Positions 20,736-27,587 of a DNA stretch of 64,000 bases are shown piece after piece. Positions within the stretch are counted from its first letter, which is position 1. The number at the start of each line of letters is the position of its first letter. Position numbers and translations under genes: made by a program. The DNA is taken from positions 1-64,000 of the forward strand of contig JACGXE010000018.1 of assembly GCA_014138095.1 (NCBI GenBank), read 5' to 3'. Under the pieces are notes generated by a model. That model saw nothing but the letters and a program-made list of their open reading frames with translations, ran no database searches and was not told where the DNA came from. Source of the DNA: Ochrobactrum sp. RH2CCR150 (GTDB lineage: Bacteria; Pseudomonadota; Alphaproteobacteria; Rhizobiales; Rhizobiaceae).

Positions 20736-22370
20736 TTAGCGTGTCCCACGGTCAAATGCTTCCGCAGTCACTCCCCTCTTTTTTAGTTCGCTGCGGGCAA
20801 TCTTTTCCGTTGGGGTCCGCGGCAGCGGACCTTCGGTAAACTCGATGTAACGCGGGGTCATATGACGTGGCGCCTGAGCGCGAAAATGCTCCACCAAGTC
20901 AGCTGGTGTCAGTGCAGATCCCGGTCGGCGCATGGCCACCAGCATGATGTCTTCTTCGGTGAACTCTGAGGGCACCCCAAATGCAGCACTCTCGACAATG
21001 TCGGTATGCGCTTCGGCAATTGTCTCGACCTCAAAAGCGGAGATATTTTCCCCACGTCGCCGAATTGCTTCGTTCAGCCTATGCTTGAAATAGAACCAGC
21101 CATCCTCATCCTGATAGCCGGCATCACCGGAGTGGTACCAGAGATTGCGCAGCGTCTGGACGGTTCTGGCTTCGGCCCGATAGTAGCCGGAAAACATGTA
21201 CCAGTTCTTTTTCGGGCGTGAGACGATTTCCCCAACCGCGCCGGCTGCAACGGGTCGGTCGTGCTTATCAACGATTGCCACTTCCCAGTCGGGATGAGGT
21301 TTTCCGCATGATCCGTCGCGCGTTGTGCCAGGTGTATCGAGCGTCACGAAGCTGGTTTCGGTTTGGCCGTAGCCGGTGACGAGTTTCATGGCGTAGCGGC
21401 GCTCAAACGCGGCTTTATCAGGAACCATTGGAATACACTGACAGACCCGAAGAGGATTATTGCCATCGCCCGCCTTTGGTTCTGCCCGGGCGAGAATGAC
21501 ACCCATGGCACCGAGCAGGTTCGTGGCTGTCGCCCCGCTGGTGCGTACCTGTTCCCAGAAACGCGATGCGCTGAAACTTTCGACCAGAGTGGTTTGCGTT
21601 CCAAAGATGAGCGGAAGATAGACCCCAAACATCTGCGCGTCGGTATGGAAAAGAGGCAACGTACAGAAATAGCTGTCGGCTGCTGTGTAGCCGAGATTGA
21701 GGGCCATCGCCATGGTCCAGCAATAGCAATGATGATGCGACATCAAAACGCCTTTAGCAGGGCCGGTCGTACCAGACGTATAGAGGATCGCCATTGGATC
21801 AGAATAGTGAGTATCAACCGTGTCGAACTCATCCGGTTGGGTCATGCATTCGTCGAAAGTGACGATTTGCTCGATGGTCAAACCGGCTGCTCGCGCGGCA
21901 GTGGCAGTCGTATCGATCAGGACGAGCGTTTCGATAAGCGGTAACTGGTCCTGAATATTGGCAAGGTCGCTCAGCCTTTTCGCATCGGCAACCAGCACTT
22001 TCGCGCCGCAATTGTTCAGATTGTGGCTTAAAAGCTCGCCCTTAAGGTCTGGATTGTTCGGGGCTTCGATAGCACCCAGTTTTGCAACGGCAAACCAGAT
22101 CGCGACAAATTCAAAACAATTGGGCAGCAAAAGTGCCACGCGGTCCGATCTTTCGACGCCAAGAGCGCGCAGGCCGTTGGCGAGCCGGTTCGAAATGTGG
22201 TGCATATCCCGGAAGCTGGCTTTGCGACCACAGACGTCGATAAAGGGCCTGTCGCCCAGCATCTCTGCCTGATGCGCAAGAATTTTGGGCAGTACCCGCA
22301 TCTCGATAGCACTATCGCTCTGTCCAGGAATGACCGTTTGCAGGGGGATTTGATCCATCGCCAACCCCAT
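20736..22370 (-). CDS. AMP-forming acyl-CoA ligase
   Basis: ANL-superfamily acyl-CoA synthetase of 544 residues: carboxylate + ATP + CoA to acyl-CoA + AMP + PPi. Motifs seen are the phosphate loop YTSGTTGPAKG, GYGQTE in the adenylation core, WYHSGDAGYQDEDG, and the C-terminal GENISAFEVE and PRTPTEKIAR with the catalytic Lys. It resembles the CaiC-like branch. I choose the ATG at 22370, four bases after the enoyl-CoA hydratase stop; ATG at 22358 is an alternative with a better GGGG ribosome site. Within this operon it would supply the acyl-CoA for the B12 mutase, as the 2-hydroxyisobutyryl-CoA ligase does in other bacteria (inference). Confidence 0.85.
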   Translation of the reverse strand: MGLAMDQIPLQTVIPGQSDSAIEMRVLPKILAHQAEMLGDRPFIDVCGRKASFRDMHHISNRLANGLRALGVERSDRVALLLPNCFEFVAIWFAVAKLGAIEAPNNPDLKGELLSHNLNNCGAKVLVADAKRLSDLANIQDQLPLIETLVLIDTTATAARAAGLTIEQIVTFDECMTQPDEFDTVDTHYSDPMAILYTSGTTGPAKGVLMSHHHCYCWTMAMALNLGYTAADSYFCTLPLFHTDAQMFGVYLPLIFGTQTTLVESFSASRFWEQVRTSGATATNLLGAMGVILARAEPKAGDGNNPLRVCQCIPMVPDKAAFERRYAMKLVTGYGQTETSFVTLDTPGTTRDGSCGKPHPDWEVAIVDKHDRPVAAGAVGEIVSRPKKNWYMFSGYYRAEARTVQTLRNLWYHSGDAGYQDEDGWFYFKHRLNEAIRRRGENISAFEVETIAEAHTDIVESAAFGVPSEFTEEDIMLVAMRRPGSALTPADLVEHFRAQAPRHMTPRYIEFTEGPLPRTPTEKIARSELKKRGVTAEAFDRGTR

Positions 22371-22374
22371 CTGC

Positions 22375-25819: not shown

Positions 25820-26262
25820 ATGCGGCCACGGGACGTTACAAGATCGGTGATGGTTGTAACGATTGTCTCCACACGCGCTTCTTGCGGCACGATGGCATCC
25901 ACGCCTCCTTCAAGCAAAGCCGCATAGTCCTGTTCAGGGATCACTCCGCCTGCAACGACAAAGATGTGCCCTGCGCCCTGTTCTTTCAGGCAGCGTCCGA
26001 GTTCGCGAAACAATGGCACGTGGGAGCCTGAAAGCAAGCTGACGCCGATGACGTCAACGTCTTCCTGAATGGCCGCCTGAACGACCTGAAGCGGCGTTTT
26101 GTAGAGCCCGGTATAAATGACCTCCATACCGGCGTCGCGCAGAACGCGCGCAACGACTTTTGCACCGCGGTCATGACCGTCGAGGCCAAGTTTTGCTACC
26201 AAGACGCGGATTGTCTGCGGCTGTTCTTGTTCCGCAGGAACTGGCGTTGCCGCGTTTATCAT
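25816..26262 (-). CDS. B12-binding small subunit of the acyl-CoA mutase
   Basis: A cobalamin-binding domain protein of 148 residues. The B12 motif DxHxxG is seen as LDGHDRG (the His ligates cobalt), followed by SLLSGSH and VVAGGVIP, which hold the nucleotide tail. The size agrees with HcmB/IcmB-type small subunits. The first ~15 residues are a flexible Pro/Glu/Gln-rich tail. It overlaps the dgdA stop and the GTPase start by four bases each. Confidence 0.9.
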   Translation of the reverse strand: MINAATPVPAEQEQPQTIRVLVAKLGLDGHDRGAKVVARVLRDAGMEVIYTGLYKTPLQVVQAAIQEDVDVIGVSLLSGSHVPLFRELGRCLKEQGAGHIFVVAGGVIPEQDYAALLEGGVDAIVPQEARVETIVTTITDLVTSRGRI

Positions 26263-27587
26263 TCTGCTGCTGCCTTTTGATATGTCATGAGTTCGTGTTC
26301 GATGGATTGGGCGATGATATCGAGGCCGAGATCGATTTCTTGTTCGGTGATGATCAATGGCGGTGCAATGCGGAAGACGGCGCCCATGCCCGGCAGCTTT
26401 ACGATGTTCATGTTCAAGCCGCGATTGAATGCTTCTTTCGCGATGCGTGCGCCCAATTCATGATCCGGTTGTCGGCTCGTGCGGTCCGTTACAATTTCCA
26501 TGCCCACAAAGAGCCCGCGACCGCGAACATCGCCTACACATTCGTAACGCTGCTTGATGGCATTGAGGCCATCGATCAGCCTATTGCCAAGATGGCGAGC
26601 GCGCTCGACCAGATCCTGTTCGGCGACAACATCCAGAACCGCCAGACCAACCGCTGCCGGCAGCGGGTCTGATACGTGGGTCGTATAAAAGAGAAAGCCA
26701 CGCTCGAAGGCCTCCTGCTCGATCTTGGTCGTCGTCAACACGGCTGACAACGGCAGCCCCGCACCGATTGTCTTGGAGATAGTCAGGATATCCGGTGTCA
26801 CACCGTCGCGCTGATAGGCGAACATTTCACCGGTGCGGCCAATTCCCGTCTGCGCTTCGTCAAGGATGAGAAGCATGCCGCGTTCATGGCATTTTTCTCT
26901 AAGTGCGCCGAGATATCCTTCAGGCAGTTCCAGCATGCCGCCGCTGGAGAGGATAGGTTCGGCGATGAACGCAGCGAGGCTACCAATTGACTGGGCGTCG
27001 ACCAAGGCGAAGGCGTCGTCAAGTTCAGCAAGCCAATCAATGGAGCCGTCGGCCTTTTTGAAGCGCGGGCGGAATGTGTTGGGTGCCGGAACGGTGATCG
27101 ATCCGGCCATTGCCGGGCCATAGCCTTTGCGCCCGGCGGAATAGGTCGCAGAGGCGGCAGCACCCGTCATGCCGTGCCAACTCTTGGAGAACGCTACAAT
27201 TTCGTGTTTGCCAGTTACCAGCTTTGCCATGCGAATCGCAGCTTCGTTCGATTCAGCACCGGTGGAGAGAAGCAGCACTTTATCGAGACCAGGTGCCACG
27301 AGCGCAAGCCTTCTTGCAAGCTCGACGACGGGTCGCGAAAGCATGCCGCTGAACAGATGGGCGACAGTTTCAACCTGTCCTTTTACTCTCTCGACAATTG
27401 CCGGATGAGAATGGCCGAGCAGAGCGCTCATTTGTCCGGAGGTGAAGTCGAGAATAGGTCTGTCGTCGGCATCGTAAACGAAACAGCCTTCAGCCCGCTC
27501 GATGATCGCCGGGTCGAACACGCCGCCATATCGGATCAGGTGCTTGTCGACATTGGTCCAGAATTCAGGCTCTAGGTTGTTTGACAT
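26259..27587 (-). CDS. dgdA: 2,2-dialkylglycine decarboxylase (PLP-dependent)
   Basis: Class III aminotransferase-fold enzyme of 442 residues. Dialkylglycine decarboxylase turns 2-aminoisobutyrate or isovaline plus pyruvate into a ketone, CO2 and L-alanine. The active-site residues described for the Burkholderia cepacia enzyme are all present at matching places: Gln52 in SGQMS, Trp137 in SWHGM, Ser214-Ser215 in PILSSGG, the PLP lysine Lys272 in SKTIGAGLPL and Arg406 in FRIAPP. Long stretches (RPVVELARRL, HVSDPLPAAVGL) also agree from memory. It is the first gene of the operon, divergent from a LysR gene as dgdA is from dgdR in Burkholderia, and it overlaps the mutase small-subunit gene by ATGA. 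This coupling to a mutase is unusual. Confidence 0.87.
   Translation of the reverse strand: MSNNLEPEFWTNVDKHLIRYGGVFDPAIIERAEGCFVYDADDRPILDFTSGQMSALLGHSHPAIVERVKGQVETVAHLFSGMLSRPVVELARRLALVAPGLDKVLLLSTGAESNEAAIRMAKLVTGKHEIVAFSKSWHGMTGAAASATYSAGRKGYGPAMAGSITVPAPNTFRPRFKKADGSIDWLAELDDAFALVDAQSIGSLAAFIAEPILSSGGMLELPEGYLGALREKCHERGMLLILDEAQTGIGRTGEMFAYQRDGVTPDILTISKTIGAGLPLSAVLTTTKIEQEAFERGFLFYTTHVSDPLPAAVGLAVLDVVAEQDLVERARHLGNRLIDGLNAIKQRYECVGDVRGRGLFVGMEIVTDRTSRQPDHELGARIAKEAFNRGLNMNIVKLPGMGAVFRIAPPLIITEQEIDLGLDIIAQSIEHELMTYQKAAAE

Follow-up and report, generated by a model that had tools for sequence, protein, structure and literature searches.

In the genome of Ochrobactrum sp. RH2CCR150, a stretch of 64,000 nucleotides (positions 1 to 64,000 of contig JACGXE010000018.1; hereafter the window) contains six minus-strand genes that form one operon conserved across genera, in which dgdA, encoding the 2,2-dialkylglycine decarboxylase DgdA, heads the genes of a B12-dependent acyl-CoA mutase. 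Judging from sequence comparisons, this operon is likely to be a catabolic module that degrades α,α-dialkyl α-amino acids, such as 2-aminoisobutyrate (AIB) and isovaline, via the B12 mutase. With slightly less confidence, we also favor the view that this mutase is the first natural B12-dependent α-aminoacyl-CoA mutase, converting 2-amino-2-methylacyl-CoA to 3-aminoacyl-CoA; it would thereby open an oxygen-independent, carbon-conserving route for AIB and isovaline that is found on two mutase branches, works with either of two unrelated ammonia lyases (one of the crotonase type, the other a 3-aminobutyryl-CoA ammonia-lyase-like protein, here called KAL), and perhaps serves for living on fungal peptaibols. 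The main argument is that a single mutase motif occurs together with amino-specific partner genes on two branches of the mutase tree, which suggests that the substrate carries an amino group.

In the proposed pathway, a LivK-type system would import AIB or isovaline, and the acyl-CoA ligase would convert the amino acid to 2-amino-2-methylacyl-CoA. The B12 mutase, with the help of MeaB, would then move the CoA-carboxyl group onto the methyl carbon, yielding a 3-aminoacyl-CoA (3-aminobutyryl-CoA from AIB and 3-aminovaleryl-CoA from isovaline), from which the crotonase-like protein, or KAL in other gene assemblies, would remove ammonia. The resulting 2-enoyl-CoA would undergo hydration, oxidation by a short-chain dehydrogenase/reductase (SDR) and thiolysis to acetyl-CoA plus acetyl- or propionyl-CoA. 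In parallel, DgdA would decarboxylate the same amino acids, or one enantiomer of isovaline, to a ketone, CO2 and alanine.

Organization and conservation of the dgdA-mutase operon

The coordinates of the six genes were re-checked in the window, and all stood as first given. The first gene, dgdA (26259..27587), encodes a pyridoxal 5'-phosphate (PLP) enzyme of 442 residues, the best PDB match of which is 1D7R (643.6 bits, residues 1-432). It is followed by hcmB (25816..26262; 148 residues), encoding the B12-binding small subunit of the mutase (TIGR00640, 143.6 bits against a cut-off of 57.45), by the gene of a MeaB-type GTPase chaperone (24824..25819; 331 residues; TIGR00750, 301.2 bits against 240.75), and by hcmA (23133..24827; 564 residues; TIGR00641, 653.2 bits against 303.8), encoding the large subunit of the putative 2-amino-2-methylacyl-CoA mutase. 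The last two are ech (22375..23136; 253 residues), the product of which is a crotonase-family protein (closest PDB match, the 3-hydroxypropionyl-CoA dehydratase 5ZAI) and may act as a β-aminoacyl-CoA ammonia lyase or a hydratase, and the gene of an AMP-forming acyl-CoA ligase (20736..22370; 544 residues), which is proposed to activate the amino acid. These two products match broad families only; the best NCBIfam matches of the ligase, PRK06155 (475 bits) and crotonobetaine/carnitine-CoA ligase (270 bits), both lie below cut-off, and no match at 40% identity was found between it and the PaaK-type ligase (HCL) of hcm operons. The close packing noted in the preliminary description was confirmed: four successive ATGA overlaps on the minus strand join dgdA to hcmB (26259..26262), hcmB to meaB (25816..25819), meaB to hcmA (24824..24827) and hcmA to ech (23133..23136), and the ATG at 22370 comes four bases after the crotonase stop. 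Because of this spacing, the ligase gene was taken as 22370-20736, instead of from its mechanical open reading frame start at 22505. A gene for a LivK-type branched-chain amino-acid binding protein on the same strand (19511..20632; PRK15404, 359 bits, below the cut-off of 477) probably belongs to the module as well, and a dgdR-like LysR regulator gene (27682..28542, plus strand) diverges from dgdA, as it does in all 18 rhizobial relatives examined.

The order lysR-dgdA-hcmB-meaB-hcmA-ech-ligase was found again at all 18 other rhizobial loci examined, namely five plasmid records, one locus of Shinella granuli (L043) and twelve loci from a family sample. Among plasmid records, 423 had a match to the mutase, 20 of them at 80-90% identity in Sinorhizobium and Shinella; the five of these 20 that were examined repeat the genes for LysR, DgdA, B12 subunit, MeaB, large subunit, crotonase and ligase, and four of them also carry livK. 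Of the 394 genomes in the family sample, 15 matched the mutase at E≤1e-165, 11 with a mutase of this clade and four with one of the HcmA type (56-59%). The twelve clade loci, which come from eight genera and include three from the window's genus, all have the gene order (12/12); within that genus, the clade was found in 4 of 35 genomes. A LivK homologue lies within the stretch examined in 16 of the 18 relatives, and SDR and thiolase genes, up to several kb away, in nine; three Shinella loci have methylmalonyl-CoA mutase, epimerase and propionyl-CoA carboxylase genes nearby (in L043 part of them only). Some relatives show signs of apparent damage: the L012 ligase and the L119 large subunit each match in two frames, and the records lack annotation for dgdA of L006 and for the large subunit of L013.

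Since dgdA and the mutase genes stay together in 18/18 rhizobial loci, while DgdA was not found at any of 25 HcmA-type loci (stretches of 3.5 to 26 kb examined), their adjacency is more than chance. A genome search for this adjacency had been suggested in the preliminary description, and its outcome is that the arrangement is not confined to this strain; the idea of one module for compounds with a fully substituted α carbon is also supported, as the adjacency is kept across genera and recurs with a distant mutase in an actinomycetotal genome (L072, see below).

A sequence motif separates the module mutase from HcmA

The mutase had been assigned at first to the 2-hydroxyisobutyryl-CoA type. This holds for the split subunits and for the nearest structure, 4R3U, a 2-hydroxyisobutyryl-CoA mutase (732.7 bits to the large subunit, followed by a methylmalonyl-CoA mutase with 446), but not for the motif described here or for the ligase, since no HCL accompanies it. 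The large subunit is 57% identical to that of Methylibium PM1. In the alignment, Val91 (codon 24555..24557, minus strand) occupies the position of Ile90 of HcmA, and Asp118 (codon 24474..24476, minus strand) that of Asp117; we assume this HcmA numbering, with which the alignment is consistent, and take Asp117 of HcmA to be the residue that binds the substrate hydroxyl. In place of the HcmA-type MPTLMG, the window has LPTLLG (24450..24467, minus strand). The combination V-D-LPTLLG was present in 22 of 22 aligned mutases from loci with DgdA, KAL or RidA. In contrast, the 25 HcmA-type loci had Ile (24) or Leu (1), Asp and MPTLMG, with LPTLLG in none of them (0/25), and 60 other mutases had Tyr or Phe at the first motif position. 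Short duplicate loci and frames of at most 450 residues, L119 among them, were left out of this alignment; L119 and a second locus of Peristeroidobacter soli (L166), examined separately, have V-D-LPTLLG too. By these aligned residues, the module mutase is predicted to be distinct from an ordinary 2-hydroxyisobutyryl-CoA mutase. The window's genome also encodes an ordinary methylmalonyl-CoA mutase (L002), which is 42% identical to the module large subunit and has Tyr and Ala at the motif positions.

The neighbours of the two mutase classes differ as well. At the 23 V-D-LPTLLG loci (L119 counted, L166 left uncounted), DgdA was found at 20, KAL at four, RidA at two and any of the three at all 23, with the PaaK-type HCL at none; at the 25 I/L-D-MPTLMG loci, DgdA, KAL and RidA were found at none and HCL at 21. 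The thresholds were 45% identity over half the length for DgdA, 55 bits for KAL and 60 bits for RidA. One locus (L131) had entered the sample via its KAL; without it, 22 of 22 have DgdA, KAL or RidA.

These data bear on another explanation, in which the ligase, mutase and crotonase degrade 2-hydroxyisobutyrate or 2-hydroxy-2-methylbutyrate via 3-hydroxyacyl-CoA, DgdA takes the matching amino acid, and the genes share an operon as the compounds co-occur. HcmA is indeed the nearest characterised mutase and has the same Asp and Gln at what we presume to be the substrate positions, and a 3-hydroxyacyl-CoA would feed SDR and thiolase directly. However, none of the 23 loci gave a match to HCL, the hcm-operon ligase, the motif is unlike that of HcmA in 22 of 22, KAL and RidA above 60 bits are restricted to the V-D-LPTLLG class, and such a route would have no need for a crotonase. 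We therefore regard the hydroxy-acid route as unlikely; of the two ideas put forward in the preliminary description it is the less likely one, given the missing HCL and the company of KAL and RidA, even though Asp118 is kept.

On the mutase tree (trees were built from 61 and 41 of the 107 aligned rows), the motif class needs two changes, and the tree fits either two gains or one gain plus one loss of the motif. Its placement as a single clade was rejected with p-AU 0.0015, for a group picked post hoc and with long stems. The recurrence of KAL or DgdA with the motif on two mutase branches, in separate gene assemblies, speaks against a further possibility, that the mutase acts on some other branched acyl-CoA and the lyase genes are incidental; this we consider very unlikely, although the best ligase families, being below cut-off, would allow it. 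Searches for more members of the rarer types gave a mutase of the L131 type in 0 of 385 genomes of a class sample at E≤1e-175 (a sample without positive control) and one of the L072 type in 1 of 396 Actinomycetota genomes, namely the query genome itself.

Ammonia-lyase-like genes accompany related mutases

KAL genes were found beside related mutases in a scan of the best 80 of 593 relatives. In the gammaproteobacterium P. soli (L014), the mutase is 83% identical to that of the window; a KAL-like gene precedes the B12 subunit, and a 3-hydroxybutyryl-CoA dehydrogenase gene comes after the large subunit. This KAL shares 55% identity with a Fusobacterium sequence that bears no annotation, and its single PDB match is β-alanyl-CoA:ammonia lyase (4MTU). 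In a metagenome-assembled genome of Actinomycetota (L072), also among these 80, a mutase only 47% identical to the window's stands beside a 56% identical DgdA, a ligase and a RidA-KAL fusion, that is, one reading frame of 304 residues (L072:2776-3690) that comprises RidA and a KAL-like hot-dog domain. These two were the only loci with KAL at E≤1e-6 among the 93 first collected. At E≤1e-5, KAL was present in two of 17 genomes (13 with the module, four HcmA-type): in G106, where the module cluster (L111) has it next to livK and some 7 kb away from the mutase large subunit, and in G211, where a separate contig (L131) carries a tight run of genes for the large and small mutase subunits, the ligase, KAL and MeaB. 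The same two genomes were the only ones with KAL in the family sample at E≤1e-18 (2/394), and both are within the 11 that have the mutase clade. The Glu of the EF(L/V) stretch, which we take to be Glu58 of 4MTU with its catalytic role, is kept in KAL of L014, L072, L111 and L131 and in 4MTU itself. At another locus (L090:7196-9097), a RidA gene is followed by a ligase readable in two frames and then by a V-D-LPTLLG mutase set; no KAL was found at this locus. KAL-like domains were further seen on plasmids of Rhizobium gallicum (L138:6672-10619) and Streptomyces (L139:6248-11160), together with an adenylating enzyme, a carrier protein and ectoine synthase, and with an alanine racemase or a type III PLP enzyme, in what looks like a small-molecule cluster.

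In a Gammaproteobacteria sample (n=312), KAL was found only in P. soli, the sample centre, which has two copies. The second one lies in a run of mutase, ligase, KAL and MeaB genes (L166), followed by those of an adenosyltransferase and a BcaP-type branched-chain amino-acid permease (537 bits, below the cut-off of 690); an X-Pro dipeptidyl-peptidase gene is upstream and a TonB receptor gene in the neighbourhood. The window-type mutase of P. soli is paired with a KAL that is about 69% identical to that of G211, the mutase of which is of the other type. This pairing of related KALs with both mutase types suggests that both mutases feed the same step. The two KAL genes of P. soli are about 23 kb apart on contig 3 (approximately 974-1015 kb), the intervening DNA encodes an S15 peptidase and a TonB receptor, and S8 and S9 peptidases are encoded alongside; this region could be an island for AIB-rich peptides.

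At L014 and L072, a 2-hydroxyacyl-CoA lyase gene above cut-off also lies beside the mutase, which is consistent with an acetone relay: DgdA would turn AIB into acetone, the lyase would add formyl-CoA, and the mutase would convert 2-hydroxyisobutyryl-CoA to 3-hydroxybutyryl-CoA. A relay of this kind has been proposed for Desulfococcus biacutus in the excerpted text of one report (PMC7176365). It would, however, need neither KAL nor an acyl-CoA ligase for the amino acid. In addition, all 20 genomes asked and 10 of 14 controls give lyase matches below the cut-off, and none of 14 rhizobial module genomes (best score among them 248 bits against 600), including that of the window, passes the family cut-off; the relay was thus rejected for the window and is highly improbable in rhizobial modules.

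The module crotonase lacks the hydratase proline

In the window's genome, no KAL was found beyond a partial match of 22.8 bits, and the crotonase is the candidate for the ammonia-lyase step. It keeps Glu118 and Glu138, and in all 19 copies (the window and 18 relatives) a Val, Val145 in the window (codon 22702..22704, minus strand), replaces the proline that hydratases carry. Of the crotonases of this genome (21 at E≤1e-20, with two identical locus pairs merged and the module's own set aside), 18 other distinct ones remain; 14 have the proline, as do all nine with both Glu residues. We assume, from the rat sequence, that the published β-valine work refers to this same proline, which belongs to the G-x-x-P stretch; the numbering used for that sequence is one off from the paper's. 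In the accessible sections of that work, the crotonase-fold proteins BvaB1 and BvaB2 strip ammonia from β-valinyl-CoA and are without a loop proline of the rat hydratase (PMC4619459). By this likeness, the module crotonase plausibly does what KAL does elsewhere. An earlier idea had the mutase rearrange an aminoacyl-CoA to a 3-aminoacyl-CoA that loses ammonia, after which the crotonase acts as hydratase. Its first part has gained strong indirect support from the KAL, RidA and amino-acid-permease neighbours and the proline-less crotonase; for its second part, an alternative is that the crotonase acts as the ammonia lyase itself.

A possible parallel role for DgdA

Gln52, Trp138, Met141, Ser215, Lys272 and Arg406 are identical between the window's DgdA and 1D7R, and we take them to be the active-site residues of dialkylglycine decarboxylase in their respective roles. 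At E≤1e-90, exactly one DgdA copy was found in five of six genomes, and none in P. soli. At ordinary loci, dgdA stands alone with lysR (3/3 examined); 58 plasmid records match DgdA. According to the portions of one paper at hand (PMC10169451), peptaibols contain AIB and isovaline, and isovaline is an inducer of DgdA activity and is used by yeasts possessing the enzyme. We infer that DgdA would run in parallel, either to supply nitrogen or to handle one of the enantiomers. The set might also run in reverse, so that ammonia and crotonyl- or pentenoyl-CoA yield AIB or isovaline, since the mutase and ammonia-lyase reactions should be reversible in principle. Yet DgdA would destroy the product, and a degradative role is indicated by the uptake genes (LivK and BcaP-type), the thiolase, the genes of propionyl-CoA metabolism and the peptidases, so that synthesis is scarcely credible.

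Several observations weigh against an aminoacyl-CoA route. On the side of the mutase, the kept Asp118 would also suit a hydroxyacyl substrate; the motif was defined after data inspection, several HcmA-type loci sit on short contigs, two of the 25 have weak RidA matches (39-40 bits, below the 60-bit line), and many of the rhizobial loci compared are close kin. On the side of the lyase, KAL falls below the curated cut-off of 160 (NF052388) at L014 (135.7 bits), L166 (132.7), L072 (95) and L111 (80), 8 of 14 control genomes also yield weak matches to the KAL model, below its cut-off, and KAL-like genes are found elsewhere too, clustered with adenylating enzymes or carrier proteins. KAL was not found in 11 of 13 module genomes, including that of the window, and the lyase step there therefore rests on one motif. 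The 2-hydroxyacyl-CoA lyase genes of L014 and L072 belong here too. Finally, with AIB as substrate the mutase route would duplicate DgdA, and P. soli has the mutase-KAL runs and no DgdA at the above threshold.

Genes flanking the operon

A run encoding a CYP199-like cytochrome P450, a 2Fe-2S ferredoxin and a ferredoxin reductase (15314-18098; PDB matches 2FR7 and CYP199A4), with a lysR gene beside it (18243-19139), might form a full O-demethylase or hydroxylase system for aromatic compounds; its membership in the module was considered and rejected, since a search of 24 loci, same-genus ones included, gave no P450 match. Just beyond the dgdR-like gene lies a second LIV-type ABC transporter, which includes a binding protein (28789-33296); it is probably a separate uptake system, and no such set is annotated in four annotated relatives. 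A third LIV-type uptake system may be encoded by ABC and binding-protein genes at 9162-9878 and 12642-13793. A row of LamB/YcsF and both carboxyltransferase domains (33661-36218) is presumably a PxpABC-like 5-oxoprolinase cluster.

Comparison with known systems

We rate the finding as a novel form of a known kind of enzyme, the B12 acyl-CoA mutases, embedded in a pathway absent from the literature searched. In open-licence literature, nothing was found on AIB-CoA, on an aminoacyl-CoA mutase or on dialkylglycine decarboxylase joined with a mutase or CoA ligase, and no paper among the matches listed names both DgdA and the mutase enzymes; within that literature, the initial statement that no described pathway joins the two holds. 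If true, the proposal would provide a third route of AIB breakdown, add an amino-substituted substrate to those of acyl-CoA mutases, and correct the annotation of genes labelled methylmalonyl-CoA mutase in the records of relatives. The motif would be a testable marker of mutase substrate choice, and the pathway a possible means for root and soil bacteria to feed on antibiotic peptides of fungi.

With the HcmAB/HCL system of Aquincola and Methylibium PM1, the window shares the split large and small subunits, MeaB and the Asp at the substrate position, but it has Val for Ile and LPTLLG for MPTLMG, includes DgdA and a crotonase in the operon, and is without a PaaK-type HCL. The dgdR-dgdA locus has the same divergent LysR and a DgdA with the same active-site residues; there, however, dgdA stands alone with lysR, whereas in the window it heads a mutase operon. 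The 3-aminobutyryl-CoA and β-alanyl-CoA ammonia lyases have their counterpart in the KAL-like partners of L014, L072, L111, L131 and L166; the 3-aminobutyryl-CoA of lysine fermentation, however, is derived from 3-keto-5-aminohexanoate and not by means of a B12 mutase. The BvaA/BvaB pathway of Pseudomonas sp. SBV1, as far as the available text of PMC4619459 describes it, likewise activates an amino acid with CoA and then uses a proline-less crotonase-fold ammonia lyase, but, unlike the module, it starts from a β-amino acid, has no mutase and employs a PaaK-type ligase. For AIB itself, the available part of PMC7782822 names dialkylglycine decarboxylase and the AibH1H2 oxygenase; AibH1H2GF of Rhodococcus wratislaviensis provides AIB breakdown besides DgdA, as proposed here for the mutase, but by an oxygenase route via α-methyl-D-serine.

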